Shown one piece after another: positions 5,180-31,992 of a stretch of 64,000 nucleotides of DNA (the first letter of the stretch is position 1; the number at the start of each line of letters is the position of its first letter). Source of the DNA: Gammaproteobacteria bacterium. GTDB lineage: Bacteria; Pseudomonadota; Gammaproteobacteria; Steroidobacterales; Steroidobacteraceae. The notes beneath the pieces were generated by a model that saw only the letters and a list, made by a program, of their open reading frames with translations, searched no databases and was not told the origin of the DNA. The stretch spans positions 1 to 64,000 of the forward strand of contig JAQGOF010000067.1 of assembly GCA_028293745.1 (NCBI GenBank). Direction: 5' to 3'. The position numbers and the translations under genes are program-made.

Positions 5180-5204
5180 TGGATCCTCTCTTTACGCGGG
5201 TGAG

Positions 5205-6623: not shown

Positions 6624-6643
6624 ACTCGAATGCTCCGATAAAG

Positions 6644-8087: not shown

Positions 8088-8202
8088 TCCGCTAGCCGGG
8101 GATTTTGGGTTCGGCGGATCTGCGCCCGCCGGGGTCCTCGCAATATACCGGAGTTACGCCTGCATTCAGGTTTCAATCTGGGGCCTTCGAAACCGGGCGG
8201 GT

Positions 8203-9156: not shown

Positions 9157-9173
9157 GTACTAAGCATTCCTTA

Positions 9174-10121: not shown

Positions 10122-10367
10122 CTATTGATGTGGCTGATGTGGCAGATGTGCCTCTTCGGCCAGCAATGCCACGGCCTTCAGCGCCAGCTCAGACAGGCCG
10201 GCGCCCTTGCGCTGCTCGAAATACTCCAGCAACTGGCCGCGCATGCGCGGCTCCCAGTACCTGCGCACGTGATTCTGTATGTCACGCGCCGCCTGCTCGT
10301 GGTCGTCCTCGCCCGCGAAGAAGGCACTGATCTCGTTCAGCATTTTTATCATGAGATCGGTATTCAT
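10122..10367 (-). CDS. fdsD: Formate dehydrogenase delta subunit
   Basis: 81 aa MNTDLMIKMLNEISAFFAGEDDHEQAARDIQNHVRRYWEPRMR; canonical last gene of fdsGBACD. Confidence 0.9.
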   Translation of the reverse strand: MNTDLMIKMLNEISAFFAGEDDHEQAARDIQNHVRRYWEPRMRGQLLEYFEQRKGAGLSELALKAVALLAEEAHLPHQPHQ

Positions 10368-14019: not shown

Positions 14020-14061
14020 TGCATTCTCCTACTGCGCAGGCGGAATCCTCGGTGCGCCCGG

Positions 14062-15624
14062 CTACCCCGCCTGCTTCAATGGCGGCGTCCGTGCACGGAA
14101 ATCCTCTCTGAAATACTTGATCGCACTCTGTACCGGGAAGGGCGTCATACCGCCGAGGCCGCACAACGATCCCTGCAACATGGTCTCGCACAGGCTTTCC
14201 AACAGTTGCAGGTTGCGCTCGCTCTCCACTCCACCCACGATCCGATCGATGACTTCCACACCGCGCGTCGAACCGATCCGGCACGGGGTGCACTTGCCGC
14301 AGGATTCCACTGCGCAAAACTCCATCGCGTAGCGGGCCATGCGCGCCATGTCCACGGTATCGTCGAACACGACGATTCCTCCATGGCCCAACAGCGCACC
14401 GATGTTGGTGAGCGCTTCATAATCGATCAAAACATCAAATTGCGAAGCCGGGATGTAAGCTCCCAGAGGACCACCCACCTGCACGGCCCGAATCGGCCTG
14501 CCGGTCGCAGAGCCACCGCCGTAGTCGTACAACAACTCCCGCAGGCTCACGCCGAAGGCGCGCTCGACGAGCCCGCCCCGCTTGATGTTTCCGGCGAGTT
14601 GCAATGGCAGCGTGCCCCGGGACCTGCCCATGCCGAAGTTCTTGTAGAACTCGGCTCCCTGGTGAAGGATGATGGGCACGCTCGCAAATGTCATGACGTT
14701 GTTGACAATCGTGGGCTGTCCAAACAAGCCCTTGATGGCTGGAAGCGGCGGGCGCACGCGGACTTCACCGCGCTTGCCCTCCAGGCTCTCCAGCATCGAG
14801 GTCTCTTCGCCGCAGACGTATGCGCCGGCGCCGAGACGTACTTCGAGATCGAATCGCTTGCCGCTGCCCAGGACATCGGAACCGAGATAGCGGGCCTGAT
14901 AGGCGGCGGCGATCGCGGTGTTGAGGGCCCGATAGGCATGGGGATACTCGGCGCGCAGATAGATGTAGCCCTGCGTCGCGCCCACTGCCAGCCCTGCGAT
15001 CGTCATGCCCTCGACGAGGCACAGCGGGTCACCCTCCATCAACATCCGGTCGGAGAAGGTGCCCGAGTCGCCTTCGTCTGCGTTGCAAGTGATGTACTTC
15101 TGCTGCGTCTTCTGCTCGAGAACGGTCTTCCATTTGATCCCGGTCGGAAAGGCGGCGCCGCCGCGACCGCGCAGGCCTGAATCCAGGACGCCCTGCACGA
15201 TGGCCTCGGGCGCCATCGACAGAGCGCGGCGCAATCCCTGGTAGCCACCGTGCGCCACATAGTCAGCAACACTGGCCGGGTCAACAATGCCAACACGCGC
15301 GAACGTCAGACGCTGTTGGGTTGCAAACCAGGGAATTGCGTCAGTCGGGCCGAGGCACAGCGGGTGTGCACCGCCGTTGAGAAAGTCCGCCGCAAACAGG
15401 CTCGGCACGTCGGCGACAGTTACGGGACCATACGCGATGCGTTGGGTCTGAACTACAACCTCAACCAACGGCTCCAGCCAGAACGCGCCACGTGATCCGT
15501 TTCGTACGAGCTTCAGCTCTATCCCGCGAGCTGATGACTCCTTCGCAATCGCCGTGGCGACCTCCCCTGCACCAATGGACAGGGCCGAGGCGTCACGGGG
15601 CACATATACGGTCGCTGCACTCAT
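14062..15624 (-). CDS. fdsB: Formate dehydrogenase beta subunit (NuoF-like, NADH-binding)
   Basis: GLRGRGGAAFPTGIKWKTV, NADEGDSGTFSDRMLMEGDP, GAGAYVCGEETSMLESLEGKRGEVRVRPPLPA, ESCGKCTPCRIGSTRG. Confidence 0.95.
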   Translation of the reverse strand: MSAATVYVPRDASALSIGAGEVATAIAKESSARGIELKLVRNGSRGAFWLEPLVEVVVQTQRIAYGPVTVADVPSLFAADFLNGGAHPLCLGPTDAIPWFATQQRLTFARVGIVDPASVADYVAHGGYQGLRRALSMAPEAIVQGVLDSGLRGRGGAAFPTGIKWKTVLEQKTQQKYITCNADEGDSGTFSDRMLMEGDPLCLVEGMTIAGLAVGATQGYIYLRAEYPHAYRALNTAIAAAYQARYLGSDVLGSGKRFDLEVRLGAGAYVCGEETSMLESLEGKRGEVRVRPPLPAIKGLFGQPTIVNNVMTFASVPIILHQGAEFYKNFGMGRSRGTLPLQLAGNIKRGGLVERAFGVSLRELLYDYGGGSATGRPIRAVQVGGPLGAYIPASQFDVLIDYEALTNIGALLGHGGIVVFDDTVDMARMARYAMEFCAVESCGKCTPCRIGSTRGVEVIDRIVGGVESERNLQLLESLCETMLQGSLCGLGGMTPFPVQSAIKYFREDFRARTPPLKQAG

Positions 15625-16115
15625 TGCTTTGGTCCGCTCGTCTTGGACTGCCGCTCTGTAATCAGGGCATCAAAGCGGTCTGGCGTCAGGCGGCCATACA
15701 GCCGCCCATCAATCATCGCCGCGGGAGAACAAGCGCAGTTGCCGAGGCAAAAGACCGGCTCCAGAGAGAACGTGCCGTCTTTGGTGGTTTCGTGGAAATC
15801 CACACCCAGGCGGCCCTTCGCGTGCTCAGCCAGCTCGTCAGCACCCATGGACTGGCACGCCTCGGCCCGGCACAGGCTCACCGTGTGGCGGCCAGGAGGC
15901 GTGTCCCGGAAAAAGTGATAGAAGGTCACGACGCCGTGCACTTCCGCCCGGGACAAATTCAGTGCTTCCGCCAGGATCGGGACGGCATCGGGCGGGACAT
16001 AGCCCAGGGCTGCCTGCACCGAATGCAGTATTTCGATGAGGGGGCCGGGACGATCCTTCATGTCCTCGACGAGGCGGCGGACGGTATCGCTTTCGTTTGG
16101 GGGCATTGCTTTCAT
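15621..16115 (-). CDS. fdsG: Formate dehydrogenase gamma subunit (NuoE-like 2Fe-2S)
   Basis: PLIEILHSVQAALGYVPPDAVPILAEALNLSRAEVHGVVTFYHFFRD...VSLCRAEACQSMG...VFCLGNCACSPAAMIDGRLYGRL. Confidence 0.93.
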   Translation of the reverse strand: MKAMPPNESDTVRRLVEDMKDRPGPLIEILHSVQAALGYVPPDAVPILAEALNLSRAEVHGVVTFYHFFRDTPPGRHTVSLCRAEACQSMGADELAEHAKGRLGVDFHETTKDGTFSLEPVFCLGNCACSPAAMIDGRLYGRLTPDRFDALITERQSKTSGPKQ

Positions 16116-17160: not shown

Positions 17161-18048
17161 CTACTTTGCATGGCCCGTCAGGATCTTGGAATGGTGGCGC
17201 AGGTGATCCTCCATGAAGGTGGACATGAAGTAATAGCCATGGTCGTAGCCTTCATGGCGTCGCAGCGTCAGCGGATATCCAACTTTTTGCGCCGCGGCCT
17301 CGAACACGTGCTGCGGCAGTTGTTTCTCGAGGAACTGGTCCGCCAGGCCCTGGTCCACGAGTATGTGCGGGCGCCGCGCCGCATCCTTCAGACCCAGCAT
17401 GATCTCGGTTGCATCGTAGGCGCTCCACTGGCCCTTGTCCGGCCCCCCGGTATCCGGACCAAGATAGCCGCTGAACGCCTTCTGGCCCCACGGCACCTGT
17501 TTGGGCGCGGAAATCGGCGCAAACGCCGAGATCGATTTGTAGATTTGCGGGTTGCGCAGTCCGAGCACGAGCGCGCCATGCCCGCCCATGGAGTGGCCAA
17601 AGATTCCGGTCCGCGCCGGGTCCGCGGGAAACTGTGCTTCGACGAGGGTCCGCAGTTCCTGTGTGACGTAGGTGTACATCCGATAGTGCTTCGACCACGG
17701 CTCCTGGGTCGCATCGACGTAGAAGCCGGCACCAACACCGAAATCCCACGAATCGCTCTCGCCAGGCAGATTCAATCCCCGCGGACTGGTGTCGGGTGCG
17801 ACGAGCATCATGCCCAGCTCTGCGGCCACGCGCTGTGCGCCGGCCTTGATCATGAAGGTCTCTTCGGTACACGTGAGCCCCGCGAGGTAGTACAACACCG
17901 GCACGCGGCCACTTCGGCCCTGCGGGGGTACGAACACAGAAAAACGCATGGGCGACGCCGTGCTCGTAGAGGCGTGGCGGTAGAACCCCACTGTGCCCTC
18001 AAAACATTTATGCGCACTGATGACTTCGAATGCAGGTGTATCGGCCAT
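17161..18048 (-). CDS. fghA: S-formylglutathione hydrolase
   Basis: MADTPAFEVISAHKCFEGTVGFYRHASTSTASPMRFSVFVPP...YYLAGLTCTEETFMIKAGAQRVAAELGMMLVAPDTSPRG...GIFGHSMGGHGALVLGLRNP. Confidence 0.95.
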   Translation of the reverse strand: MADTPAFEVISAHKCFEGTVGFYRHASTSTASPMRFSVFVPPQGRSGRVPVLYYLAGLTCTEETFMIKAGAQRVAAELGMMLVAPDTSPRGLNLPGESDSWDFGVGAGFYVDATQEPWSKHYRMYTYVTQELRTLVEAQFPADPARTGIFGHSMGGHGALVLGLRNPQIYKSISAFAPISAPKQVPWGQKAFSGYLGPDTGGPDKGQWSAYDATEIMLGLKDAARRPHILVDQGLADQFLEKQLPQHVFEAAAQKVGYPLTLRRHEGYDHGYYFMSTFMEDHLRHHSKILTGHAK

Positions 18049-18298
18049 TACGCTACCTTGATCGGTGCAGGACTTGCGGAAGTTGCCGGCCATTATGGCC
18101 CATCCCACCAGAGAGGCGCCCCTCCAGCTGCTGCCAGCACCCGTTCCGAAAAGGATCCGTTCAACGAATGGAACGATCGAGAATAACCGCGCGCGGGCGG
18201 TGATCGGCTGCTCCGTCTTTCATAGTGCGCCTGGATTGCCGAGAATCCACGCTCTCGCATTGGCGACCTGTAGCTTCGCGGGTCACATGAGGGGGACT

Positions 18299-19639
18299 AT
18301 GCTGGTGAATACCGATCCGCGCGAAACGTTGGCGAGCGCGCCCATGAGCACGCTTCAGGTCCTGGCTGTCGCGATCACTGTGGGCCTCACGGCACTCGAC
18401 GGATTCGACGTCCTCTCCATCAGCTTCGCCTCGCCCGGCATCGCGGCCGAGTGGGGCATTGACCGTGCAGCCCTCGGCGTCGTGCTGTCGATGGAACTGA
18501 TGGGAATGGCACTCGGCTCGATAGTGCTGGGTGGCGTTGCGGACAGAATCGGCCGCCGCCCCACCATGCTCGGCTGCCTGGTGTTGATGACCCTTGGCAT
18601 GTTCATGGTCACCACGGTGAAACAGATCCCCGAGCTCGAAGTCTGGCGGTTTACGACCGGGCTTGGAATTGGCGGCCTGCTGGCCGCCAGTAACGCGGTG
18701 GCCGCCGAGTTCGCCAATCTGCGCCGTCGCAACCTGTGTGTATCGCTCATGGCCGTCGGCTATCCGCTGGGCGCCGTGTCGGGCGGGCTGATCGTCGCGC
18801 AGTTGCTGCAGGGACATGACTGGCGGTCGGTGTTTTATTTCGGCGCAGCGATTACCGCGGCCTTCATTCCGCTGGTGCTCCTGATGCCCGAGTCAGTGCA
18901 TTGGCTGGCACAGAAGCAACCCGCAGGGGCGCTGGAGCGGATCAACCGTGCGCTCACGCGAATGGGCCACGCGGTCATCGGTGCGCTGCCCGCAATTCCA
19001 GCGGAGGTCCGGAAGCGCTCGGTTACCGACATTTTCGCGCCCGGGCTGATCATGACTACCGTACTGTGCGCGCTTGCGTATTTCTTTCACATAATGACCT
19101 TCTACTTCATGCTGAAGTGGGTGCCGAAGATCGTCGTGGACATGCATTTCCCGCCGTCCGCTGCTGCTGGCGTTCTCGTCTGGGCGAATGTAGGTGGCGC
19201 GTTGGGAGGGACGGTTGTCGGACTCATAACCCAACGCGTCGGGCTCAAGCAGGTCACAATCGGCGCGATGTTGCTCTCGAGCGTCATGGTGGTCCTGTTT
19301 GGACGCAGCGCTCCCGACCTCATCGAGTTGTCAGTGCTGTGTGCCGCGGCCGGCTTCTTCACGAATGGAGTCATCGTAGGCATGTACGCGATTTTCGCGC
19401 AGGCGTTTCCAACGCACGTGCGCGCGACGGGCACGGGATTCGCCATTGGCATAGGACGCGGTGGATCGGTGCTCGCACCGATCACGGCCGGGTTCCTGTT
19501 CAAATGGGGCTATCCGCTGCCGACGGTCGCGCTTTACATGGCGATGGGCTCGCTCATTGCCGCCGGCGTCCTGGCGTTACTGAAGCTCAAGCCGGATCAG
19601 CCGGCCTCCATCACCTTGTTGAGCAGTGCGAGGAGCTGA
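18299..19639 (+). CDS. MFS transporter, aromatic acid:H+ symporter (AAHS) type
   Basis: LTALDGFDVLSISFASPGIAAEWGIDRAALGVVLSMELMGMALGSIVLGGVADRIGRRPTML; PcaK/VanK/BenK-like DGFD and G(X)DRIGRR motifs. Confidence 0.85.
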   Translation: MLVNTDPRETLASAPMSTLQVLAVAITVGLTALDGFDVLSISFASPGIAAEWGIDRAALGVVLSMELMGMALGSIVLGGVADRIGRRPTMLGCLVLMTLGMFMVTTVKQIPELEVWRFTTGLGIGGLLAASNAVAAEFANLRRRNLCVSLMAVGYPLGAVSGGLIVAQLLQGHDWRSVFYFGAAITAAFIPLVLLMPESVHWLAQKQPAGALERINRALTRMGHAVIGALPAIPAEVRKRSVTDIFAPGLIMTTVLCALAYFFHIMTFYFMLKWVPKIVVDMHFPPSAAAGVLVWANVGGALGGTVVGLITQRVGLKQVTIGAMLLSSVMVVLFGRSAPDLIELSVLCAAAGFFTNGVIVGMYAIFAQAFPTHVRATGTGFAIGIGRGGSVLAPITAGFLFKWGYPLPTVALYMAMGSLIAAGVLALLKLKPDQPASITLLSSARS

Positions 19640-20094
19640 TCCCGCCCGCGCCTGCCGAGGCGGGTGACGAAGCGTTGCTCATAGGCTTCGTGAATCGTTC
19701 GGGCCCGCTGCAGTGTTACATTGCCGAGCGGTGTGAGGTGTAGCGCCGAGGAGCGCCGGTCCGCTGCGACCGACTTGCGCAAGGCCAGGCCGCGTCGCTC
19801 CAACTCGTTGAGCAGCGGGACGAAGTTGGCCTTCTGGATCCCCAGGGCATCGCAGACTTCCGTCTGCCGCACCCCCGGATTCTCACTGATGATGGTCAAT
19901 ACGGCGAACTGCGTGGGCCGCAGGTCGATCTCCTTGAATGCTTCGAGAAACTCCGCCACGGCTGACATTTGCGCCCGGCGCAGCGCATAGCCCAGGTAGT
20001 CGGTCAGCGGCCCGAAGTTCACCTGCCTCCCGGAGCTGGCTTCTGCATCCTCATTGGGTTCCTTGCGTTTGACTTTCGGCATGGCTTTCGACAC
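19597..20094 (-). CDS. MarR-family transcriptional regulator
   Basis: LRPTQFAVLTIISENPGVRQTEVCDALGIQKANFVPLLNELERRGLALRKSVAADRRSSALHLTPLG; wHTH with DRR motif. Confidence 0.92.
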   Translation of the reverse strand: MSKAMPKVKRKEPNEDAEASSGRQVNFGPLTDYLGYALRRAQMSAVAEFLEAFKEIDLRPTQFAVLTIISENPGVRQTEVCDALGIQKANFVPLLNELERRGLALRKSVAADRRSSALHLTPLGNVTLQRARTIHEAYEQRFVTRLGRRGRDQLLALLNKVMEAG

Positions 20095-21025: not shown

Positions 21026-21084
21026 TGTAGGGAATAACAATTGGCGAGTTGAGGCAGTGCTCGAACATTCGAGGGGGTGCCGAT

Positions 21085-22044
21085 ATGAGTCAGCTTGAAT
21101 CCTTCTCCACTGCGGGGCTCGATCCGCGCCGCAAGCTGGAATACTGGAACGACGCTGTGTGCGCCACATTCGCGCACAACCAGTCGGATCCGCTCGACGT
21201 GCGGAACTTCTCCGGGAAGCTGAGCCGTACCAAGCTCGGTGATATGCGCCTTGCCGAGGTCTACTCGGATGCCCAGACCGTGCGGCACCTGCGAGCACAC
21301 GTAGCGCGCTCCCGCATCGCGATGTTCTTCGTCCACATGCAGCTCGAGGGCGAGAGCCTGAACCGGCAGGACGGCCGCGAAGCGCGGCTCGGTCCCGGCG
21401 ATTTCACGTTGTGCGACACATCGAGGCCCTACGAGATCCTGTTCGAGGGTCCGAACCGGATGTTCGTGCTTGGCATTCCTGACACGATGCTGCGCCGGCA
21501 CGTGGCCTGCCCGGAGAGCATCGTGGCGGTTCCCATGCGCGGTGACTCGGGCTTGAGCGGGCTCCTGTCGCATTTCCTGAGAGACTTCTGGAGCAGTTAC
21601 GGGGACGACTTCGATCCGTCGGTCTCCTCGCGCATCACGCGCGCCATCCTCGACCTCCTGGCCAGCGCCTACACCGTGCTGCCCCAGTCCCATTCGGACC
21701 GCTCCTCGCTCGCCACGTCGCACCGGATTCGCATAGTCAACTACATCGAGGCACACCTCGGCGATCCGGACCTGACACCGATGCGTGTGGCCGAAGCATG
21801 CAAGATGACTCCCCGCTACCTGCATCATCTTTTCTCGAATGAGTCCGAGACCGTGGCGCGATACATTCTGCGCCGCCGCCTGGAGGAATGCTCGCGTGCT
21901 CTTACGGTTGCCGCACAGCGTGGACGCACAGTCACCTCAATTGCATTCGACTACGGATTCAACAGCCCCACCCACTTTGGCCGCGTGTTCCGGACCCGCT
22001 TCGGCATCACCCCGCGGGAGTACCGGCGCCAGCATAACGGCTAG
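21085..22044 (+). CDS. AraC-family regulator (FeaR-like architecture), copy 1
   Basis: MSQLESFSTAGLDPRRKLEYWNDAVCATF...; C-terminal RRLEECSRALTVAAQRGRTVTSIAFDYGFNSPTHFGRVFRTRFGITPREYRR. Confidence 0.92.
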   Translation: MSQLESFSTAGLDPRRKLEYWNDAVCATFAHNQSDPLDVRNFSGKLSRTKLGDMRLAEVYSDAQTVRHLRAHVARSRIAMFFVHMQLEGESLNRQDGREARLGPGDFTLCDTSRPYEILFEGPNRMFVLGIPDTMLRRHVACPESIVAVPMRGDSGLSGLLSHFLRDFWSSYGDDFDPSVSSRITRAILDLLASAYTVLPQSHSDRSSLATSHRIRIVNYIEAHLGDPDLTPMRVAEACKMTPRYLHHLFSNESETVARYILRRRLEECSRALTVAAQRGRTVTSIAFDYGFNSPTHFGRVFRTRFGITPREYRRQHNG

Positions 22045-23479
22045 GGGGTGCCGCCGGAATCCAGTTGCCGTGCACGCCGACTCGCAGCCTGAACGGGACT
22101 TTGATCCGTGCCAACGGGCCTTTGTCGATGTGTTCGGCTTCCAGGATGTACATCTCGGATTGGTTCTCCGCGTGTTGGTCGACGATGAAGCCCAGATAGC
22201 CTTCGTGGCCCGGCGTGCCGGACGGAATGTGGAAGTGCTCCTGCACGGTTGATTGCGGGCCTGGCACGAAACTCTTCAGTTTGCCGGTCCGCACCTCGAG
22301 CCGCATGATCGTGTTGAATCCCGCTCCGACCGGGCCCGCGATCAACGGCGGCCCGGCTGTTGGATCGAACGTCTGGTAGTAACCGATCTCGTAGTCAACC
22401 ATCGCATCCTTCTCCGCGGCGCGCGGCAGGTCACCGCCCGGTCCCAGCACCGTCTCCTCGAACCCTTCTCCGGGCTTGGACAGGTCGAAGGTCCAGCGCA
22501 CGAAGCCTCCAGCCAGGTCCTGCGGCTGTACCTGGATTCCGCTTGCCTCGCGAATGAACGGGAAGGCATTCACCTTGCCGCAGCCAAAATCCAGGTGCAC
22601 GCGCGGACCCTCGGTGTATGCATTCATGAAGTGATACGCGGAACGGGGAGGACCCCGGAACCAGCGCAGATCCTTCACGCTGCCATCTCGCGGCATGATG
22701 CCGACGAAGGTGTCTTTGGTCGGTTCCCAGATCCAATGCGGGCCGCCGGCCTTGATGCGCGCCAGGTCCGCAGTCGTTGGAAATACCGGAAATACGGTGT
22801 GCTCCTTCGTTACTGCGAAGTCGTGCATCATCGCGCAGTACGGCGCCTCGAACCATTCTTCGCGAATCAGCTCGCCATTTTTGTCCGCGACGCAGTACGC
22901 AACATCCCGAGAGGCAAGACCGCTTGCCTCGTAGCCAAAAAAATACAACTCGCCGGTATCCCGATCGGGGCGCGTATGCGCCGTCATCGTCTGACTTCGC
23001 AGCTTACCCCGATAGTCCCACTCGCCCAGTGTTTCCAGAGTATCTGGGTCTACTTCCATCGCACGGCTGTCTTCCTTCAACGCAAGCAGCCGGCCGCCAT
23101 GGAAAATGGGTGTGGTGTTGTTGACGTTGCGAGGCTTGCCCCGGACGCTGGGATCATCCGTGTACGGGTTGCGATACAGGCCATGCAGCGAGCGTCGCGC
23201 GCGGCGCTCATTCTTGAAGCGCTCCGTCTGGATGTAACGCTGCTTGAGATCGACATGACCGTTCTCGAAGCGCAACAACCGCATCATCCCATCCCCGCTC
23301 AGGTATGTGTCATGCCCGAGCATGGGCGGGTATTGAGGATCAGGTACCGTTTGATACCAGGAGCCATTGATCTCGGCGGGCAACTGTCCTTCGATCACGA
23401 GGTCATAGACGTCGCACTCGATCCTCGACGGAGCATTGAAGCCGCTGAAATCCATGGAAGCGGGAAATTGAGTCGTCAT
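22007..23479 (-). CDS. Carotenoid oxygenase family protein, lignostilbene-alpha,beta-dioxygenase-like
   Basis: 490 aa; LPAEINGSWYQTVPDPQYPP...YLSGDGMMRLLRFENGHVDLKQRYIQTERF...PYCAMMHDFAVTKEHTVFPVFP...YHFMNAYTEGPRVHLD...GHEGYLGFIVDQ; His-containing carotenoid-oxygenase motifs. Confidence 0.85.
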   Translation of the reverse strand: MTTQFPASMDFSGFNAPSRIECDVYDLVIEGQLPAEINGSWYQTVPDPQYPPMLGHDTYLSGDGMMRLLRFENGHVDLKQRYIQTERFKNERRARRSLHGLYRNPYTDDPSVRGKPRNVNNTTPIFHGGRLLALKEDSRAMEVDPDTLETLGEWDYRGKLRSQTMTAHTRPDRDTGELYFFGYEASGLASRDVAYCVADKNGELIREEWFEAPYCAMMHDFAVTKEHTVFPVFPTTADLARIKAGGPHWIWEPTKDTFVGIMPRDGSVKDLRWFRGPPRSAYHFMNAYTEGPRVHLDFGCGKVNAFPFIREASGIQVQPQDLAGGFVRWTFDLSKPGEGFEETVLGPGGDLPRAAEKDAMVDYEIGYYQTFDPTAGPPLIAGPVGAGFNTIMRLEVRTGKLKSFVPGPQSTVQEHFHIPSGTPGHEGYLGFIVDQHAENQSEMYILEAEHIDKGPLARIKVPFRLRVGVHGNWIPAAPPSRYAGAGTPAG

Positions 23480-24273
23480 GTGCGCCTCCTTAGCAGGTCG
23501 GCGAAATCGTCCTGCGGCGTGAGATAGCTACCTGACAGGTCGTCGAAGCGGCCGGATGCGAGGTCCACGCACATCTGCCCGCATCGCGCCAAGCCTAGGG
23601 CCGGATCGTCGCGCTCCTTGATCTCTTGCAACGCGCTCATCATGCCAGGCAACCAACGCTGGGCCTCGGGCGAGGCGATTGTGCCCGCAGCGAGTTCGGT
23701 GAATACAGTGCCCGGTTCGATCGCGAAGGCGCTGATTCCGTTCTCTTTACCTTCAGCCGCAACGTGTTGTGTCAACCGGATCTGCGTGGCCTTGCCGACG
23801 CCATAGGCGGACAGGTTTGGCGTCACCTCTGTTCCACCACGGCTTGCGATGTTGATGATACGCCCGGCCCGTCGTTTCACCATATCCGGCAACACGGCAC
23901 TCGTGAACAGCAGCGTGCCGCGAACATGAATCGCCTGGGAGGCCCACCATTCGTCCGGGTCCACAACACCGATCGGTCCAAACGGACCCGCAATGCCGGC
24001 GTTGTTGATCATCAGGGTGACTGGACCGAATTGTTTCACGGTGCACGCGACCACTCGCGCGACATCCTGGCGGTTGGTAACGTCGCCGGCAGCTGCGAGT
24101 GCCCGGCCGCCTGCTGCTGCGATTGCGCTTACTGTCGAATCGAGTTGCGCCTGTGAACGGGCAGTAACGGTAACCGCCGCGCCCTCTGCGGCCAGCCTCG
24201 TGGCAATCGCCCTGCCGAACCCGCGGCCACCTCCCGTGACGATTGCAACATGACCTTGGAGTTGAGCGGTCAC
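23476..24273 (-). CDS. Short-chain dehydrogenase/reductase
   Basis: VAIVTGGGRGFGRAIATRLAAEGA...NNAGIAGPFGPIG...INIASRGGTEVTPNLSAYGVGKAT. Confidence 0.92.
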   Translation of the reverse strand: MTAQLQGHVAIVTGGGRGFGRAIATRLAAEGAAVTVTARSQAQLDSTVSAIAAAGGRALAAAGDVTNRQDVARVVACTVKQFGPVTLMINNAGIAGPFGPIGVVDPDEWWASQAIHVRGTLLFTSAVLPDMVKRRAGRIINIASRGGTEVTPNLSAYGVGKATQIRLTQHVAAEGKENGISAFAIEPGTVFTELAAGTIASPEAQRWLPGMMSALQEIKERDDPALGLARCGQMCVDLASGRFDDLSGSYLTPQDDFADLLRRRT

Positions 24274-24286
24274 GGGAGTTGAGCGG

Positions 24287-24997
24287 TTACGCGGCCTGCC
24301 ACTTCTTGCCGGTGACCGGGTGCTCGTAGTGGAACGGGACGACTTCCGTCTCGGGCCACAACACCGGCGTCGGCTTCATCAACTCATCCGGTCCAAGCGG
24401 ATCCTTTGGATATGTCTCGCTGTAGAACGGCACGAACTTCGGCGGAGTGTGTGCCCAGCCCGTTTCGAACAGGCCGTGCCAGATGGCACGATAGTTCAGT
24501 ACCTTTAGTTTCCAGATGCCATCCTCGCGCGCGTACGTGTTCTCGTAGATTCCACCCTCCCACCACTGCTTGATGGCGTTGGGGGCAATGTCCTTCATGG
24601 TGTCATGCCGGCCTGCCTGCATGACACAGCGGAAGCGAGCGAGCGCGGTGCTGCGATCAGGCGCAACATCGACAATGTCCTGAAGTATCGGGTGATCGAG
24701 CAGGAAGCCGTAGACGGGACCGTTGTGTCCGCCGGTGAAATTCTTGCGAAACCGATCGCAGTACAGGCGCCGAACGCCGGCCTTGCCTTTGAAGATGCCA
24801 CCCATGAAGCGCACTTCGCCGCTGTCGCTGAACAGATCGACGACCTCGTCATAGAGACATTTGTCGAGGTAATACCCGTAAGCGTGCTGCAGCCGGCGAA
24901 CGGCATGCACATCGCGCAGCGAGCCTACTTCGTTCGATAGCTGCTCGACCTGCCTGCGCAGGGCCGACAGGTCAGCTGTTGCGTCAACGCCAGCCAT
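24287..24997 (-). CDS. NTF2/SnoaL-like protein; candidate LdpA/LsdE-type gamma-formaldehyde lyase
   Basis: MAGVDATADLSALRRQVEQLSNEVGSLRDVHAVRRLQHAYGYYLDKCLYDEVVDLFSDSGEVRFMGGIFKGKAGVRRLY: SnoaL/NTF2 fold sequence; contiguous and co-directional with SDR and lignostilbene-dioxygenase-like gene. The specific activity is inferred. Confidence 0.7.
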   Translation of the reverse strand: MAGVDATADLSALRRQVEQLSNEVGSLRDVHAVRRLQHAYGYYLDKCLYDEVVDLFSDSGEVRFMGGIFKGKAGVRRLYCDRFRKNFTGGHNGPVYGFLLDHPILQDIVDVAPDRSTALARFRCVMQAGRHDTMKDIAPNAIKQWWEGGIYENTYAREDGIWKLKVLNYRAIWHGLFETGWAHTPPKFVPFYSETYPKDPLGPDELMKPTPVLWPETEVVPFHYEHPVTGKKWQAA

Positions 24998-25063
24998 TGG
25001 TCTCTCCCACCCATACCCTTTGGTCGTGTATATGGCACGAAATACCGCCCTGCGGACTCGACT

Positions 25064-25092
25064 CACGCAGAAAGGCGACTCGATTCTGCGTG
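25064..25092. promoter_or_regulatory. Perfect inverted repeat CACGCAGAA-N11-TTCTGCGTG, candidate operator
   Basis: 9-bp perfect arms with 20-bp centre spacing in the divergent promoter between the NTF2-like and LigW-like genes. Confidence 0.6.
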
Positions 25093-25129: not shown

Positions 25130-26152
25130 ATGCCATACCAGAGAATCGCGACCGAAGAAGCGTTCGCAACACCTGAACTGTTCGCCCTGTACCGCCAGAT
25201 GCTGACGAACAAGACCATCCAGGACCCCGGGTTCCTGAGCCTGTGGGGCTTCTACCTCTCGAGTCCAAGCGCTCGCGCCACCCAGATCATCGAGCGCCTG
25301 CAGGACCTCGGCGAGCGCCGGATCGGCGACATGGACTCCACCAGCGTCGCCATGCACATCCTCTCGCTGACATCACCCGGAGTGCAGGTGTTTGATGCGG
25401 CTACAGCCGTGGCATTCGCGAAGTCGAGCAACGATCAACTCGCCGAAGCGGTCCGGAAGCACCCTGCCCGCTTTGTGGGGCTCGCAGCGGTCGCCCCGCA
25501 GAATCCGCCCGAGGCTGCCAAGGAACTGGAGCGCGGAGTGCGTACGCTTGGCTTGAAGGGCGCCATCATCAACTCGCACACACTGGGCGAGTACCTGGAT
25601 GACCCTCGGTTCTGGGATATTTTCGCCGCGGCCGAAGCACTGGATGTGCCGGTGTACTTGCATCCCAACAGCCCGTCGGCGGGATTGATTCAGCCGTTGC
25701 TGCAACGTGGGCTCGACGGCGCGATTTACGGGTTTGGCGTGGACACTGGCATGCACCTTCTGTCCATCATTACCAGCGGTGTGTTCGATCGCTTTCCGAA
25801 GCTCAAAGTCATAGTGGGACACCTGGGTGAGGCACTGCCATTCTGGCTGTTCAGACTCGATTACATGCACCGTGCGACGGTCAACTCGAAGCGGTATGCC
25901 GTTCTGAAGCCTCTGCAACGCAAGATCAGCGACTACATGAGGGAGAATGTCTATGTGACTTCGAGTGGCATGGCCTGGGCGCCCGCCATTCAATTTTGTC
26001 AGCAGGTACTCGGGGCGGAGCGTGTGATGTATGCGATGGACTACCCGTACCAGTTCGAAGCGAGCGAAGTCACCGAGATGGATGCGGTTGGCACGGACCT
26101 CGACAGGAGGAAGTTCTACGAGGTGAACGCGCGGGCGGTGTTCAAATTGTGA
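25130..26152 (+). CDS. Amidohydrolase-family decarboxylase, LigW-like (5-carboxyvanillate decarboxylase / gamma-resorcylate decarboxylase group)
   Basis: RIATEEAFATPELF...LWGFYLSSPSARATQIIERLQDLGERRIGDMDSTSVAMHILSLTSPGVQVF...VGHLGEALPFWLFRLDYMH...MYAMDYPYQFEASEV; closely matches recalled LigW motifs. Confidence 0.8.
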   Translation: MPYQRIATEEAFATPELFALYRQMLTNKTIQDPGFLSLWGFYLSSPSARATQIIERLQDLGERRIGDMDSTSVAMHILSLTSPGVQVFDAATAVAFAKSSNDQLAEAVRKHPARFVGLAAVAPQNPPEAAKELERGVRTLGLKGAIINSHTLGEYLDDPRFWDIFAAAEALDVPVYLHPNSPSAGLIQPLLQRGLDGAIYGFGVDTGMHLLSIITSGVFDRFPKLKVIVGHLGEALPFWLFRLDYMHRATVNSKRYAVLKPLQRKISDYMRENVYVTSSGMAWAPAIQFCQQVLGAERVMYAMDYPYQFEASEVTEMDAVGTDLDRRKFYEVNARAVFKL

Positions 26153-26176: not shown

Positions 26177-27598
26177 TCACACCCAGCTTGCCGAGCGCCT
26201 GACGCTTTCAGCGTAACCCTTCAGCCCAGACCACACTATCAAGGCGGCCAGCGGGCCCAATACACAGGCTGCCGCACAGAGCGAATAGCGCAGCATGTTC
26301 TCCCCGCGGAACACATAGTCGGTGAGAAGCGCCACTACGGTCGGCCCGACACCAAATCCGATGACGTTGAATACGAACAGGAACAGCGCCGTCACCTGGC
26401 CGCGCATCTGGTTGGGAGTGATGATCTGCAAGGCCGCGTTCTGGGGCCCGGGAGACAGCATGGCAAAGAACCACTGCGCGGCCAGTATGGCCACGGCGAG
26501 CTCCGGTGTCGGCATGAGCGGATAAAGGATTGCGCACGGAGTGCTGCCGACAATGGCGATCAGCGTGACGCGCATATTGGCATCCGCATAGCCCTTCCTG
26601 GTGAACCACTCGGACAGCGCGCTCCCGATCATGAGTGCGAAGGGTGCCGTGCAGATGACGATGCTTCCCTGCAGCACGCCGGCCCGCGCTGCGGTCCAAC
26701 CGTAGGTGCGGATGAAGAATGTCGGCACCCACGCGGCGGCGCCGAAATGCAACACGACGTTACAAGCGAGGCCCAGGAACATGGGCCCATACGCCCAACG
26801 GTTGTCCTTCATGAATCTCAGAACATCCGCGACCGGGATGGACTTCATCGCAACGCCTGCGATCCGCCCGCGGCGCACGGGCTCCGGAACCGTTACGAAC
26901 AACGCAGCCACCAGGAACCCGGGCAGGCTCACGAGCAGGAACGTAATCTGCCAGGGGCGCAGTGCTCCCAACAACGGCAGCTCGATCGGGCCCATGTTGG
27001 AGACGAAATGAATGACGGCGCCGCCCAACACCAATGCCAGGCCCGTACCGGCCACGAAACCGAAATTCAACACCGAGATGGCGCGGGGCAGTTTCTCGCG
27101 CGGAAACAGGTCAGCCATCATCGAAAACGTCGCCGGGCCGTTGCAGGCCTCACCCACACCGACTCCAATGCGCGCAATGAACAGCTGCACGAAGCTCTGT
27201 GCCAGCCCACAAAACGCCGTCATCAGGCTCCAGATGGCGATACCCGACCCGATGATCAGGCGGCGGCTCTTCGTATCCACCAGCCGCGCGATCGGCATGC
27301 CCAGAAACAAGTAGAAGAACACGAATGCGAAACCGACCAGCAGGCTCGCCTTGGTATCCGACAACTGCATGTCATGTTTGATAGGACCGATCAGCAGCAC
27401 GAGGATGCCGCGATCCAGGAAATTGATGGCGAGAGCGAGGCCAAAAATGCCCACTGCGTACCACGCACGGCGTGGGCTTGGCCAGGGCGCTTCCGCTGCG
27501 GCGGCGGCGCTAGTGGCAGCGCCAGCGTCCGTGGCGGGGGCCCCGGCGCTACCGGCGGCGGCCGGGGTCGGGGCCGTAGTACTTTGAGCCATATCCAT
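26177..27598 (-). CDS. MFS transporter (intact paralogue)
   Basis: About 473 aa from MDMAQST; ATGA overlap with upstream GST stop; 12-TM MFS sequence EAPWPSPRRAWYAVGIFGLALAINFLDRGILVLLIGPIKHD. Confidence 0.88.
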   Translation of the reverse strand: MDMAQSTTAPTPAAAGSAGAPATDAGAATSAAAAAEAPWPSPRRAWYAVGIFGLALAINFLDRGILVLLIGPIKHDMQLSDTKASLLVGFAFVFFYLFLGMPIARLVDTKSRRLIIGSGIAIWSLMTAFCGLAQSFVQLFIARIGVGVGEACNGPATFSMMADLFPREKLPRAISVLNFGFVAGTGLALVLGGAVIHFVSNMGPIELPLLGALRPWQITFLLVSLPGFLVAALFVTVPEPVRRGRIAGVAMKSIPVADVLRFMKDNRWAYGPMFLGLACNVVLHFGAAAWVPTFFIRTYGWTAARAGVLQGSIVICTAPFALMIGSALSEWFTRKGYADANMRVTLIAIVGSTPCAILYPLMPTPELAVAILAAQWFFAMLSPGPQNAALQIITPNQMRGQVTALFLFVFNVIGFGVGPTVVALLTDYVFRGENMLRYSLCAAACVLGPLAALIVWSGLKGYAESVRRSASWV

Positions 27599-28266
27599 CA
27601 AACCAGGAACTTGCGGCCCGCGTCCACCGTCTGCTGGGTGCGCTCGCCGAGATCCACGGCGGGTGGTATGGCAGAGCCTCGTTTCACAGCCGGACGCTCC
27701 GCGATCAGATCGTGCCAGCGCTGCAGATGGCGCAGTCCGTCGAGTGTGACTCCCGACCACCCGTAACCCTTGACCCACGGCCACAGAGCCATGTCGGCGA
27801 TCGAATAGTCACCGGCGATGTATTCGTTGGATGCGAGCTGATTGTCGAGTATGCCGAACAGGCGGAGTGTCTCCCGCTGGTAGCGCTCGATTGCGTACGG
27901 AATCTTTTCCGGCGCGTAACGGAAAAACACGTTGGCCTGTCCCATCATGGGACCGACGCCTGACATCTGGAACATCAGCCATTGCAGCACCCGTGAGCGT
28001 CCCTTCACGTCGGTGGGCAGGAACTTGCCGCTCTTCTCGGCGAGATAGATCAGAATGGCGCCTGATTCGAAGATGACAAAGTCATCATTGTCATGATCGA
28101 TCAGCGTGGGAATGCGCCCGTTGGGATTGAGCTTCACGTACCAGTCGGCCTTCTGCTCCTTCTCGGATAGCTTGATGTGCCGCCACGTGTATGGCAGACC
28201 CATTTCCTCCAGTGCAATGGAGATCTTCCACCCGTTGGGCGTCTCGGACGTGAGTAGCTCGATCAT
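27598..28266 (-). CDS. Glutathione S-transferase, Nu-class/YfcG-like
   Basis: [59 protein letters not shown]...[19 protein letters not shown]. Confidence 0.87.
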
Positions 28267-28439
28267 GAGAAGGGCAACCTCGTGCCAGGGCAGGCAGCAT
28301 TGTGGCGCGTCGCGGCAGGTCGGGATTCCACCCTGAAGGAACTAAAACTCGACCACCGGCGCCTTCCGTGCACTCCGCGTCGCATAGCGTTTCACCTGTG
28401 GTCGATTATGCGCGGGGCGCGTGCGCGTATCGTGGCCCG

Positions 28440-29150
28440 ATGCAAAGCGCTGAGGAACAGCCTTGGCCAAGCCCGCGCAGGGCTTGGTACGCACTGGCGG
28501 TGCTGACGGTCGCCCTCATGGTCTCCACTATCGACCGAAGCATCCTCTCCCTGCTCGTCGGACCCATCAAGCACGTCCTCGGTGTCACCGACACCCAGAT
28601 GAGTCTCCTCCTGGGAATGGCATTCGTCAGTATTTACGCGTTCCTGGGTCTGCCCATTGCACGCATCGCTGACGTTAGCAGCCGCCGCCGGATCATCGGA
28701 ATCGGCATAGCGTTCTGGAGCGCAATGACCGCCCTGTCGGGTGTCGTTCACACCTACTCGCAACTGTTCCTGGCCCGGGTAGGTGTTGGAGCCGGTGAAG
28801 CCTCCTTCGCACCCGCGACCTACTCCATGCTCACCGACTCATTCCCGAAGGAAAAGCTTCCACGCGCAATGGCGGTGATGAGCATTGGCTTTACGGCCGG
28901 CTCGGGACTCGCGCTGATCCTCGGTGGCTGGGTGATTCATCTCGTCACCAGAATGCCTCCCGTAACCTTGCCCCTGATGGGCCCGACCGCCGTCGCGCTG
29001 TTCACGGACTATGTCTTCCATGCCGAGAGCGCCCTGAGATATTCGCTCACGGCGGTGTCCGCAATCACCGCGCCTCTGGCGGTGTTGATCGTCTGGTATG
29101 GATTGAAACCCTACGGACGCAGCGTTCTGCGCGCCAACGCCCGTGCCTAG
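28440..29150 (+). pseudogene. MFS transporter with large in-frame internal deletion (both termini retained)
   Basis: 236 aa; N-terminal half parallels the 26177-27598 MFS, then jumps from ...PPVTLPLMG directly to PTAVALFTDYVFHAESALRYSL, which aligns to the extreme C-terminus of the intact paralogue (PTVVALLTDYVFRGENMLRYSL). About 207 residues absent. Confidence 0.8.
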
Positions 29151-29151
29151 C

Positions 29152-29438
29152 CTACTGCTTGCGATCCCCGGCAACCTGCTCGCTCGCGCGATGCACGACG
29201 TATGAGCGAATCGTCTCAGGTCGTAGTGCCACGCCAGCTTCAGCTGGCGGACGCTCTGGGTGTTAATTTGCTTCAGCGGACTGAACCGCTGCTCGTCGTA
29301 GGTACGACCGTAGGTCAGCCAATTGCCAGTGTCGCCATCGGCGGCCGTGAGGCGCGCGGCATCCACCGGGGCGTGCTGCGCCCCGCAAGCGCTCAGCACA
29401 ACGACAAGGCTCACCGCCCCACGGCGTAAAGCATCCAT
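29152..29438 (-). pseudogene. PQQ-dependent alcohol dehydrogenase remnant: N-terminal and C-terminal ends joined out of frame
   Basis: Frame 1: MDALRRGAVSLVVVLSACGAQHAP...DTGNWLTYGRTYDEQRFSPLKQINTQSVRQLKLAWHYDL (PQQ-ADH N-terminus). Immediately after, in another frame: RPETIRSYVVHRASEQVAGDRKQ-stop (PQQ-ADH-like C-terminus). Confidence 0.75.
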
Positions 29439-29465
29439 GGACCCTGCCCCCGACTTCGCCAGCGC

Positions 29466-30995
29466 TCAGATCGCCATACACACCGACTTCAGCTCGGTGT
29501 ACAGGTCCAGCACAGCCCTCCCATGCTCGCGCCCAAACCCGGACTGTTTGAAACCACCGAACGGCATGTTGGGATCCACGAAGTTGTGGCAGTTCACCCA
29601 GACGGTGCCGGCGCGAATCCTGGGCACGAGACGTTGAACCGCGCGCAGGTCGTTGGACCAGATGCTGGCGGCAAGCCCATAAGGGGTGTCATTGGCCAGC
29701 GCGGCGATGTCATCGAGGTCTTCGAACCGCTGTGCGACCAGCACGGGCCCGAAAATCTCCTCACGCACTACTTTCATGTCGGAGCGTACGTTGGCAAGCA
29801 CTGTCGGCTTGACATAGAAGCCTGGCGACGAAGGTGTCTCGCCGCCTGCTACGACGGTAGCCCCTTCCTTGCGGCCCGACTCGATGTATCCGAGTACGCG
29901 CTCCTGTTGCTCGCGCGAGACGAGCGGACCCATCTGAGTCTTGGGATCGAGGCCGGGCCCAAGCTGAATGGAGCTCGCCGCCGTGCTGATGCCTTCAACC
30001 ACCCGGTCGAAGACTTTCTTGTGGGCAAACAGGCGGGTCCCAGCGCAACAGACCTGGCCGGCGTTGAAGAAGATCGCATTGGCTGCACCGCCGATGACAC
30101 TGTCGATATCGGCATCGGGCAGCACGATCACGGGCGACTTTCCACCCAGCTCCAGGGACACTCGCTTGAGAGTGTCCGTGGCCGACTTGTTGATGAGCTT
30201 GCCAACAGGGGTGGATCCCGTAAAGGCAACTTTGTCCACGCCAGGATGGGCAACCAGCGCTGCTCCCGTCGTTTCGCCAAGACCTGTGAGGACGTTGACG
30301 ACTCCAGGCGGGAAACCAGCCTCGGCGATCAACTCCGCGAGGCGTAGCGCCGTAAGCGGGGTTTGCTCAGCGGGCTTGAGGATGCAGGTGCAACCCGTTG
30401 CGAGTGCAGGCCCCAATTTCCAGGCTGCCATCGCGAGGGGGAAATTCCAGGGAACGATCTGCGCCACAACGCCAACTGGCTCGCGCTGCGTGTAGGTGTG
30501 AAACTTGACGCCCGGCGGCCCATGGATCGAGGTGGCGAATGTCGAGCCTTCGATCCGGGTCGCCCACCCCGCCATGTAACGAAAGTAATCGCGAGTACCC
30601 GCAACATCCACGACGGTCGCCATGAACTTGGTCTTACCGTTGTCGATGCTTTCGAGCTCGGCCAACTCGTCCATGTTCTTCTCGACCAGGTCCGACAGCT
30701 TCCACAGTAATGCCTGTCGGTCGGCAGGCAACATGTCCGCCCATGGGCCCGATTCGAACGCCTTGCGGGCGGCTGCGACCGCGCGGTCCACGTCTGCCTC
30801 GTTGGCGTCCGCAACCGAAGCGATTTCGCGCCCGGTCGCGGGATCGACGACCGAAATGCGCTCGCGGGATTTCGACTCCACCCACTCGCCACCGATGAAC
30901 AGGCGGGGCGGGCGCTTCAGGAACTTTGCGACGGCCGCCGAAGGATCTGGCTGCAAAGGAATCTGGTATTGAGTTAGTGCGGGCGATGCGTTCAA
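29466..30995 (-). CDS. Aldehyde dehydrogenase (phenylacetaldehyde/betaine-aldehyde DH-like)
   Basis: VPWNFPLAMAAWKLGPALATGCTCILKPAEQTPLTAL, FTGSTPVGKLI, LELGGKSPVIVLPDADID, FFNAGQVCCAGTR; TTG start. Confidence 0.92.
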   Translation of the reverse strand: MNASPALTQYQIPLQPDPSAAVAKFLKRPPRLFIGGEWVESKSRERISVVDPATGREIASVADANEADVDRAVAAARKAFESGPWADMLPADRQALLWKLSDLVEKNMDELAELESIDNGKTKFMATVVDVAGTRDYFRYMAGWATRIEGSTFATSIHGPPGVKFHTYTQREPVGVVAQIVPWNFPLAMAAWKLGPALATGCTCILKPAEQTPLTALRLAELIAEAGFPPGVVNVLTGLGETTGAALVAHPGVDKVAFTGSTPVGKLINKSATDTLKRVSLELGGKSPVIVLPDADIDSVIGGAANAIFFNAGQVCCAGTRLFAHKKVFDRVVEGISTAASSIQLGPGLDPKTQMGPLVSREQQERVLGYIESGRKEGATVVAGGETPSSPGFYVKPTVLANVRSDMKVVREEIFGPVLVAQRFEDLDDIAALANDTPYGLAASIWSNDLRAVQRLVPRIRAGTVWVNCHNFVDPNMPFGGFKQSGFGREHGRAVLDLYTELKSVCMAI

Positions 30996-31058
30996 GCAAG
31001 ACCTCCGTGCAATGCAACTGACGGCGTTATGGCGAAGGGGTCATTTCGTGGGCGCGGA

Positions 31059-31817
31059 TCAGCCGCCGAAGGTGCGCAACACTTCCGGCACCTTGTTCGG
31101 CATCGCCAGCGCTGCCTTGACGGCGGGACGCTCGTTCATCCGTGCCAGCCATTGGACCGCGCGCGGCGTGAGCCGCTCGTTCATCAGTTCGGGAAAGAAC
31201 CGCGGCACGCCCGCAACCATCGAGTAACTGTTGACCTCCGCCAGGGAATACGTCTGCCCCGCGATCCAGGGCGACTCCTTCAGGATCTCCTCCAGGCGCT
31301 GAATCGAAACACCGAGCTTGCGGCGCGCGTCCGCGAGCTGGGCCTCGGTAAATGACTCGCCCGCAATGGTTGCCCATTTGTCGCGCTGCTCCTTGAGCGG
31401 GATACGCGCCAACACTTCGTCGAGCTCGTCCTTGTTCAGGCTCCTGGCCACCCGGCGCACCATGTTGTGCCAGCCGATCATGGACAGCGCGGGACAGAAA
31501 TACTCATCGACGAACTTGCTCCAGATGCGCATGCGCGCGCGCTCGAATGGATCGCGCGGCCGCAAAGGAACCTGGGGAAACACTTCGTCGAGGTATTCAT
31601 TGATGACCGTGGATTCGGTGATGGTCGCGCCGTCGTGCACCAGTACGGGGACCTGGCCATTCGGGTTGATGGCGACGAACCCGGGCTGATGCTGTTCGAA
31701 GCGCAACAGGTCCACGTAGTGACTGGTGAACTCGATGCCCTTCTCCTTGAGGCACAGGAGCACCTTCATGGAGTTGGCAACCGGCTCGGCGTGATACAGC
31801 TCCAGCATAGATGGCAT
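31059..31817 (-). CDS. Glutathione S-transferase, LigF-like beta-etherase family
   Basis: MLELYHAEPVANSMKVLLCLKEKGIEFTSHYVDLLRFEQHQPGFVAINPNGQVPVLVHDGATITESTVINEYLDEVFP...DPFERARMRIWSKFVDEYFCPALSMIGW...LGVSIQRLEEIL; the DPFxRAxMRxWxKxVDEYFC block matches recalled LigF. Confidence 0.8.
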   Translation of the reverse strand: MPSMLELYHAEPVANSMKVLLCLKEKGIEFTSHYVDLLRFEQHQPGFVAINPNGQVPVLVHDGATITESTVINEYLDEVFPQVPLRPRDPFERARMRIWSKFVDEYFCPALSMIGWHNMVRRVARSLNKDELDEVLARIPLKEQRDKWATIAGESFTEAQLADARRKLGVSIQRLEEILKESPWIAGQTYSLAEVNSYSMVAGVPRFFPELMNERLTPRAVQWLARMNERPAVKAALAMPNKVPEVLRTFGG

Positions 31818-31992
31818 TGGACCCGAGGCCGCACTCGCGACTCTCGACCCACCGCGAACCCGGCATCCACCCACAAGGAAATTGTCCACGCCTGGATCCA
31901 TCCTGCGCCCATCTTGCGCCGCGGCGGTTATTCGGATTGACTAAGCAGGGGGGCGCCCAGCTCGTACACCAGCGTCTCCAGGGGGAAGCCAG

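Follow-up and report, generated by a model that had tools for sequence, protein, structure and literature searches.

Two described routes lie closest to the locus reported here. The β-5 (DC-A) pathway of Novosphingobium aromaticivorans, PcfL-FerD-LigW-LsdD, is encoded by Saro_0796–0802 (PMC11323797), and the β-1 (DGPD) pathway, LdpA-LsdA, is represented by Saro_2805/Saro_2809 and in SYK-6. PcfL deformylates DC-A, DC-L, and DC-C (PMC11323797), whereas LdpA is strict and acts on erythro-DGPD only (PMC12997858). The β-5 route requires a LigW-type decarboxylase and the β-1 route does not (PMC11323797, PMC12997858). Among the dioxygenases, SYK-6 LSD6 (LsdA), which has Phe283, is reported to favor lignostilbene as substrate over DCA-S (PMC8191317). 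In a published survey, the complete PcfL pathway (PcfL, LsdD, FerD, and LigW homologues) was found only in Alphaproteobacteria, almost all of them Sphingomonadales (PMC11323797).

The window analyzed here, a 64,000-nucleotide stretch of gammaproteobacterial DNA, carries an NTF2-SDR-oxygenase gene trio that very probably lets the bacterium release formaldehyde from a two-ring lignin fragment and then cleave the fragment. We read the trio as a lignin-dimer operon with a β-5 (phenylcoumaran, dehydrodiconiferyl-type) dimer as its preferred substrate, at a probability of about 0.5.

Organization of the Operon

22007–23479, minus strand: lignostilbene α,β-dioxygenase, 490 aa, in a third subgroup on the NOV2 side
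23476–24273, minus strand: classical SDR, 265 aa, predicted dehydrogenase of a dimer alcohol or ketone
24287–24997, minus strand: NTF2/SnoaL_4 protein, 236 aa, predicted cofactorless γ-formaldehyde lyase of the LdpA/PcfL family

Three contiguous, co-directional genes had been described here by a sequence-only reading, and the open reading frames bear this out, in the order NTF2, SDR, oxygenase. Their families (Pfam SnoaL_4, 5e-24; adh_short, 2e-45; RPE65, 4e-114), operon structure, and linkage are established. The NTF2 and SDR genes are separated by 13 bp, and the SDR stop codon overlaps the oxygenase ATG by 4 bp (23476–23479). AGGAGG lies upstream of the oxygenase ATG and GGAGAG upstream of the NTF2 ATG; because of the latter motif, the start at 24997 is favored over a longer GTG open reading frame reaching 25066. 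The three families are adjacent in identical order in the Acidobacteria L080 and L083, so the grouping is far beyond chance.

The NTF2-Fold Lyase

The NTF2 protein matches SpLdpA (8abv) at 6e-60 by phmmer with 43% identity, and its full-length identity to LdpA sequences is 43–46%. Structural prediction and active-site comparison with LdpA, as proposed earlier, gave an AlphaFold model with a pLDDT of 95.2 and a TM score of 0.90 to 8abv, in which the fold is that of LdpA. His102 aligns with His97 of NaLdpA, the residue changed to Gln in the 8abu variant, which served as the catalytic reference. Arg34, Arg77, Tyr79, His131, Glu147, and Tyr169, mostly missing in distant SnoaL proteins, are retained, as are all residues conserved across the LdpA/PcfL family. 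The best structure match is LdpA at 9e-26, versus 2e-8 for the best other SnoaL structure. Sequence and model together place the protein among the LdpA/PcfL formaldehyde lyases, away from unrelated SnoaL proteins, and it is a predicted lyase, as the earlier reading had proposed; a generic SnoaL hydratase is rejected on fold, residues, and linkage. The gene is present in a single copy in the 6.9-Mb genome. A plasmid-borne copy was also rejected, as just two distant plasmid matches (53–55%) were seen.

Within this family, the protein lies nearer PcfL. Its mean identity is 55.7% to presumed PcfL orthologues versus 43.6% to LdpA, and the individual values for the former (53–58%) are above the published 50% PcfL cut-off; these orthologues were recognized because their genes are arranged as PcfL-FerD-x-LigW-MFS-LsdD, like Saro_0796/0797/0799/0802, and the LsdD of their loci is NOV1-like (1038 bits). 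In the rooted tree, the lyase is placed with PcfL and others, apart from the LdpA clade (SH-aLRT 96); forcing it together with LdpA costs 31 log units at a borderline AU p of 0.05. It is likewise not inside the PcfL clade, where holding the two together is also borderline (AU p 0.052), and groups with L029, L030, L041, and L050. Most LdpA-specific residues are absent. Orthology to LdpA is rejected on identity and tree, and orthology to PcfL is not accepted, the lyase being in a group of its own. The β-1 (diarylpropane) assignment first given to the operon is thus not supported as it stood, in view of the 56% versus 44% identity, the position outside the LdpA clade, the few LdpA-specific residues, and a LigW-type neighbor; the neighboring genes suggest a β-5 fragment at least as much as a β-1 fragment.

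The Lignostilbene-Type Dioxygenase

The oxygenase scores 664 bits against the NOV2 lignostilbene dioxygenase model NF053780, marginally above the cut-off of 650; true NOV2-type enzymes score 840–865 bits, and the relative from L080 scores 648. It fails the LsdD/NOV1 model NF053778 (504 bits, cut-off 800). Identity to NOV2-type enzymes is 45%, and in the tree the protein lies on the NOV2 side as its own third subgroup. All iron ligands (His168, His219, His283, and His470) are present, as are Tyr102 and Lys135 (reference Tyr101 and Lys134), which together bind the 4-OH group. The pocket, Leu60/Tyr282/Asp350, is of the NOV2 type: in LSD4 numbering, Leu occupies position 59 and Tyr position 283, instead of Phe59/Ser283 as in LsdD. 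Phe59 is thus missing. The six NOV2-type sequences used for comparison all have Leu there too, so not every lignostilbene dioxygenase carries Phe59. The Ser/Ala at 283 of the DCA-S-cleaving LsdD/NOV1 type is absent as well. On this sequence evidence, the single-copy gene (6.9-Mb genome) encodes a predicted NOV2-side lignostilbene dioxygenase. The expectation that the oxygenase would group with lignostilbene dioxygenases is upheld by scores, signature, and tree, and an apocarotenoid or retinal-forming enzyme is ruled out by scores and signature.

With both enzymes considered, a fortuitous adjacency of a generic SnoaL hydratase or isomerase, an SDR, and a carotenoid oxygenase, with no dimer pathway, appears highly improbable: SnoaL_4 and SDR proteins form large, promiscuous families, but the match of fold and family-specific residues to LdpA, the lignostilbene dioxygenase signature, and the linkage conserved across phyla all argue against it.

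Because the oxygenase is NOV2-side, a β-1 operon retains some probability, even if we consider it rather unlikely. Here the lyase would be a functional LdpA, the SDR would invert or oxidize the Cα alcohol of threo-DGPD, the lignostilbene would yield two vanillins, and LigW would serve another pathway. The NOV2/LsdA-side placement, the bulky residue at position 283, and the lignostilbene preference of LSD6 fit this proposal; the lyase, at 44% to LdpA, outside its clade, and with most LdpA-specific residues missing, does not, and the β-1 route has no role for LigW. For the β-5 dimer, conversely, the Leu59/Tyr283 pocket of a NOV2-side enzyme is an unfavorable observation, given that LSD6 of the same side prefers lignostilbene (PMC8191317).

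The SDR

The SDR carries Ser144-Tyr157-Lys161 and GGGRGFG. Eight relatives at 48–63% identity are encoded near NTF2 lyases, the next best matches being at 32–34%, and the subfamily thus recurs beside such lyases, with an SDR pair in L083. In the two nearest relatives, the SDR is not between lyase and oxygenase. The earlier reading suggested that the SDR may define a pathway variant; it is a recurrent partner of these lyases, though not in those nearest relatives. In a β-1 operon, SDR linkage and the L083 pair would suit the SDR-catalyzed part of threo-DGPD breakdown, but identity to the presumed LigN/LigO orthologues of Novosphingobium loci is only 27–31%. The resemblance of such pairs to the stereo-inversion logic of the β-1 route counts against a β-5 dimer.

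The LigW-Type Decarboxylase and Divergent Promoter

25055–25092, no strand: candidate operator in the divergent promoter, from repeats, function putative
25130–26152, plus strand: LigW-type 5-carboxyvanillate/5-carboxyferulate decarboxylase, 340 aa (phmmer), divergent from the operon

The span 22007–24997 given earlier for the operon is correct in its coordinates, but the functional unit is wider, as the LigW-type gene diverges from it 132 bp away at 25130. Its product matches the N. aromaticivorans 5-carboxyvanillate decarboxylase (4inf/4qrn) at 2e-126 and LigW2 (4qs5) at 1e-125. The E, H, and D metal-site motifs align with those of 5-carboxyvanillate decarboxylase, and we take these positions to be the metal ligands. 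It is the only genome copy above 43%. LigW is linked to 16 of 17 PcfL-clade genes versus 0 of 6 LdpA-clade genes (Fisher p 7e-5), and L030, L039, and L044 also have it next to an oxygenase of this type. In the Acidobacterial relatives, the operon is present but close homologues of LigW are not; this and the position of the lyase outside the PcfL clade weigh against a β-5 substrate, and LigW could instead act on 5-carboxyvanillate that arises elsewhere.

The candidate operator comprises a direct repeat, GACTCGAYTC, at 22-bp spacing and a perfect inverted repeat, CACGCAGAA-N11-TTCTGCGTG. The same intergenic region of L030 holds a different direct repeat, also 22-bp-spaced. Across the genome, matches to the direct-repeat operator were no more numerous than those of the control.

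Surrounding Genes

1878–3497, minus strand: LigM, tetrahydrofolate-dependent vanillate/3-O-methylgallate O-demethylase (NF047885, 784 bits, cut-off 580)
10364–16115, minus strand: NAD-dependent formate dehydrogenase operon with FdhD (TIGR01591, 924 bits; TIGR00129, 222 bits; NuoF-type subunit)
17161–18108, minus strand: S-formylglutathione hydrolase, formaldehyde disposal (TIGR02821, 444 bits, cut-off 282)
21082–22044, plus strand: AraC-family (FeaR-like) regulator (AraC_binding_2 and HTH_18), convergent with the oxygenase
27598–28266, minus strand: glutathione transferase, probably Nu class (6tum, 6e-89)
29466–30995, minus strand: aldehyde dehydrogenase, candidate oxidizer of oxygenase-released aldehydes (closest NCBIfam StyD)
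31059–31901, minus strand: LigF-like β-etherase glutathione transferase, β-O-4 linkage (4xt0 LigF, 7e-61, next best 1e-17)

The regulator scores 176 bits against the FeaR model, under the cut-off of 199, and an 81–84% identical regulator adjoins the same genes in L050. The aldehyde dehydrogenase scores 728 bits against StyD, under the cut-off of 850; a 71% relative adjoins the oxygenase in L030. The formate dehydrogenase γ subunit was assigned from sequence only, and the genome also encodes, at another site, a glutathione-dependent formaldehyde dehydrogenase (C122; 620 bits, cut-off 544). The glutathione transferase at 27598–28266, presumably of the Nu class, may pair with the LigF-like protein as its glutathione lyase. 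LigM, the LigF homologue, the probable Nu-class transferase, and the formaldehyde and formate disposal genes complete a lignin-aromatic island, pathway completeness having been sampled with few genome searches.

Proposed Pathway

Reactions, substrate, and co-regulation are what we infer from these observations. Acting on a phenolic diaryl dimer, the NTF2-fold enzyme would release the γ-CH2OH carbon as formaldehyde, with no cofactor and through a quinone methide such as that proposed for LdpA, to give a 4-hydroxystilbene, which the Fe(II) dioxygenase would cleave to two aromatic aldehydes; the SDR may oxidize, reduce, or epimerize the dimer alcohol ahead of the lyase. A β-5 dimer is preferred because the lyase is nearer PcfL than LdpA and because of the LigW neighbor with its clade-specific linkage. 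Such a dimer would yield vanillin and a 5-formyl aromatic, the latter oxidized by the nearby aldehyde dehydrogenase and decarboxylated by the LigW-type enzyme. Formaldehyde would be handled in turn by FrmA, S-formylglutathione hydrolase, and formate dehydrogenase, and vanillate by LigM.

A lyase and a dioxygenase that both accept several γ-hydroxymethyl dimers, or a dimer outside both models, such as a phenylcoumaran with a shortened, carboxylated ring that would give 5-carboxyvanillate directly, seems distinctly unlikely; the presence of one lyase and one dioxygenase copy, each in its own subgroup, and the activity of PcfL on three dimers (PMC11323797) would accommodate it, whereas LdpA at least is strict (PMC12997858). 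More tentatively than for the β-5 dimer, we suggest a separate lyase and dioxygenase lineage in Gammaproteobacteria and Acidobacteriota. In it, a PcfL-side lyase would be joined to a NOV2-side dioxygenase and LigW, frequently together with a dedicated SDR, and the substrate may be a dimer, or a range of dimers, beyond the two sphingomonad routes.

Comparison with Known Systems

The PcfL pathway shares with the locus the lyase family (56% to its orthologues), a lignostilbene dioxygenase, a LigW-type decarboxylase, and a nearby aldehyde dehydrogenase, and a MarR protein in the window weakly matches the Saro_0803 family. Unlike that pathway, the locus has a NOV2-side dioxygenase in place of LsdD, an SDR gene placed between those of the lyase and the dioxygenase, a compact operon with a divergent LigW, a lyase outside the PcfL clade, and a host that is not a sphingomonad. 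With the LdpA-LsdA pathway, the locus shares the lyase family, fold, His97 equivalent, and an oxygenase on the NOV2/LsdA side, whereas lyase identity is 44%, LdpA-specific residues are absent, LigW is present, and the dioxygenase, at 45% to NOV2-type enzymes, is barely over the NOV2 cut-off. The LigD/LigL and LdpB/LdpC set of SYK-6 (threo-DGPD inversion) has the same SDR fold and formaldehyde-lyase association; the window SDR probably represents a separate subfamily. Both protein types of the LigF and Nu-class glutathione transferase β-aryl-ether module occur at 27598–31901, but this module serves another linkage (β-O-4) and lies outside the operon.

Since lyase and dioxygenase point opposite ways, the locus offers a clean test of β-1 versus β-5 specificity, and it is a source of new enzymes for lignin C–C linkages. 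It probably carries out the chemistry of the PcfL pathway with another type of dioxygenase plus an SDR, in a single operon of a probable gammaproteobacterium, and has relatives in Acidobacteria.

Operon Organization and Distribution

The three genes that the sequence-only reading had proposed as a lignin-dimer operon are present where it placed them, each with a match to its family domain:

24287–24997, minus strand, NTF2/SnoaL_4 protein (the predicted lyase)
23476–24273, minus strand, SDR
22007–23479, minus strand, RPE65-family oxygenase

The layout is that of an operon: 13 bp separate the lyase and SDR genes, the SDR stop codon overlaps the oxygenase start, and Shine-Dalgarno-like motifs precede the ATGs of the lyase and oxygenase genes. 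The lyase and dioxygenase are each single copy in the genome sampled (6.9 Mb, 259 contigs, 91% complete). The closest named relatives of the lyase are from Steroidobacteraceae and other Gammaproteobacteria. All 11 same-genus genomes listed lack it, a pattern that points to acquisition by transfer or to several losses.

The 132-bp divergent region contains a direct repeat with 22 bp spacing as well as an inverted repeat without mismatches; at the same place in L030, a locus from another genome, a different direct repeat has the same spacing and shares a GCGACTC-like core. We would guess that these repeats form an operator; a genome-wide motif search for the direct repeat did no better than the control. 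A convergent AraC-family gene is kept next to the operon in L050. Separately, a MarR protein (19597–20094, minus strand) matches the NCBIfam Saro_0803 family below cut-off (84 versus 200); a regulator of this type adjoins LsdD in Novosphingobium.

Lyase Structure and Phylogeny

In phmmer searches, LdpA structures match the lyase at 6e-60, and beyond them only bile-acid dehydratases appear (E 0.003). The AlphaFold model (pLDDT 95.2) superimposes on SpLdpA with erythro-DGPD with a TM of 0.90, the next family following at E 2e-8. By their PDB titles, 8abt–8abw are Na/SpLdpA and 8abu is the H97Q variant; His102 of the window lyase aligns with this His97. Also retained are R34, R77, Y79, H131, E147, and Y169, which are conserved family-wide and mostly missing in distant SnoaL_4 proteins. 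We put the probability that the class of chemistry is lignin-dimer lyase/dioxygenase at about 95%.

PcfL orthologues were identified by synteny: in L066 and comparable loci of Novosphingobium, the arrangement lyase-ALDH-x-LigW-MFS-LSD corresponds to Saro_0796 (PcfL), 0797 (FerD), 0799 (LigW), and 0802 (LsdD); the L066 dioxygenase is NOV1-like (1038 bits). Mean identity of the window lyase is 56% to the PcfL clade and 44% to the LdpA clade. The rooted tree places it on the PcfL side of the LdpA split (SH-aLRT 96, without bootstrap and with a long outgroup branch), in a separate group with L029, L030, and L041. AU tests are borderline for its union with either LdpA (0.051) or PcfL (0.052).

A third large clade of these lyases (clade C: L037, L053, L055, L100, and about 26 other loci) is mostly sphingomonad and rarely linked to LigW (2/30). 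Single open frames of about 700–1000 aa with three tandem SnoaL/NTF2 domains occur in several order-level genomes; those at L020 (472–3453) and L025 (727–2853) share about 35% identity with the lyase of the window, and the L025 protein starts like a secreted protein.

Substrate Preference

The divergent amidohydrolase matches the N. aromaticivorans 5-carboxyvanillate decarboxylase at 2e-126. When a β-5 stilbene is cleaved, the position ortho to the phenol carries a formyl group; FerD oxidizes this group and LigW removes it (PMC11323797). A β-1 stilbene yields no substrate for LigW. Linkage to LigW is seen for 16 of 17 PcfL-clade lyases versus none of six LdpA-clade lyases (Fisher 7e-5, indicative only, given the relatedness of the loci and the short length of some contigs). 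It accompanies the window's oxygenase subgroup in the window, L030, L039, and L044, and is absent beside this subgroup in all four Acidobacterial loci. We judge the chance that the substrate is a β-5 dimer to be roughly even.

The dioxygenase provides the chief evidence against a pure β-5 reading. It narrowly passes the NOV2 equivalog (664 bits, cut-off 650) and fails the LsdA-TMY1009/NOV1-type equivalog (504 bits, cut-off 800). In the tree, its subgroup draws members from Acidobacteria, Gammaproteobacteria, and a single alphaproteobacterial bin; the sister group consists of true NOV2-type enzymes, which are found in loci with an LdpA-clade lyase (L051, L057, L060, L077). The Fe ligands and Tyr/Lys pair are kept; Leu replaces Phe59 of LSD4, and Tyr replaces its Ser283. 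LSD5 and LSD6, both with Phe at 283, favor lignostilbene over DCA-S, and S283F in LSD4 lowered both activities (PMC8191317). We judge a β-1 dimer to be a rather unlikely substrate, and a broader range or a different dimer less likely still.

SDR and Neighboring Genes

Among retrieved loci, the nearest SDR relatives (48–63%) lie close to NTF2 lyases in L031, L032, L033, L041, L080, L083, and L102, the next best reaching 32–34%; L080 and L083 share the order NTF2-SDR-LSD. Since L032, L041, and L102 pair SDR and lyase with no dioxygenase detected, the dimer is the probable substrate of the SDR, converted ahead of the lyase step or along with it. The step is accessory, as L030 and L050, the closest relatives, have lyase and dioxygenase side by side with no SDR between them.

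A LigF-like β-etherase (31059–31901, minus strand; 7e-61 to LigF 4xt0) and, about 3 kb away, a GST probably of the Nu class (27598–28266, minus strand) likely form a β-O-4 module adjoining the operon; comparable pairs occur in L070 and L101. A 282-aa MFS transporter (28302–29150, plus strand) appears truncated or internally deleted and resembles an intact one at 26177–27784. A TonB-dependent receptor (36962–39598, plus strand) is a possible outer-membrane entry for aromatics.

Formaldehyde disposal is encoded near the operon by an S-formylglutathione hydrolase and formate dehydrogenase operon in the window, and an FrmA-type dehydrogenase lies on contig C122. LigM, FolD, PurU, and AhcY lie at 1.9–6.7 kb. 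They belong to a minus-strand cluster (1878–10064) that continues with genes we take to be MetK, kinase-like, and MetF-like, and that ties O-demethylation to one-carbon metabolism; PurU presumably occupies the position that LigH has in SYK-6. At 46077–48264, PcaF (3-oxoadipyl-CoA thiolase) and a regulator of the PcaR/PcaU family both exceed NCBIfam cut-offs, and a LigB-type dioxygenase is on contig C214. In terms of known systems, the locus is a lignin-dimer lyase/dioxygenase operon of a familiar type, with a gene arrangement and a host that are new.
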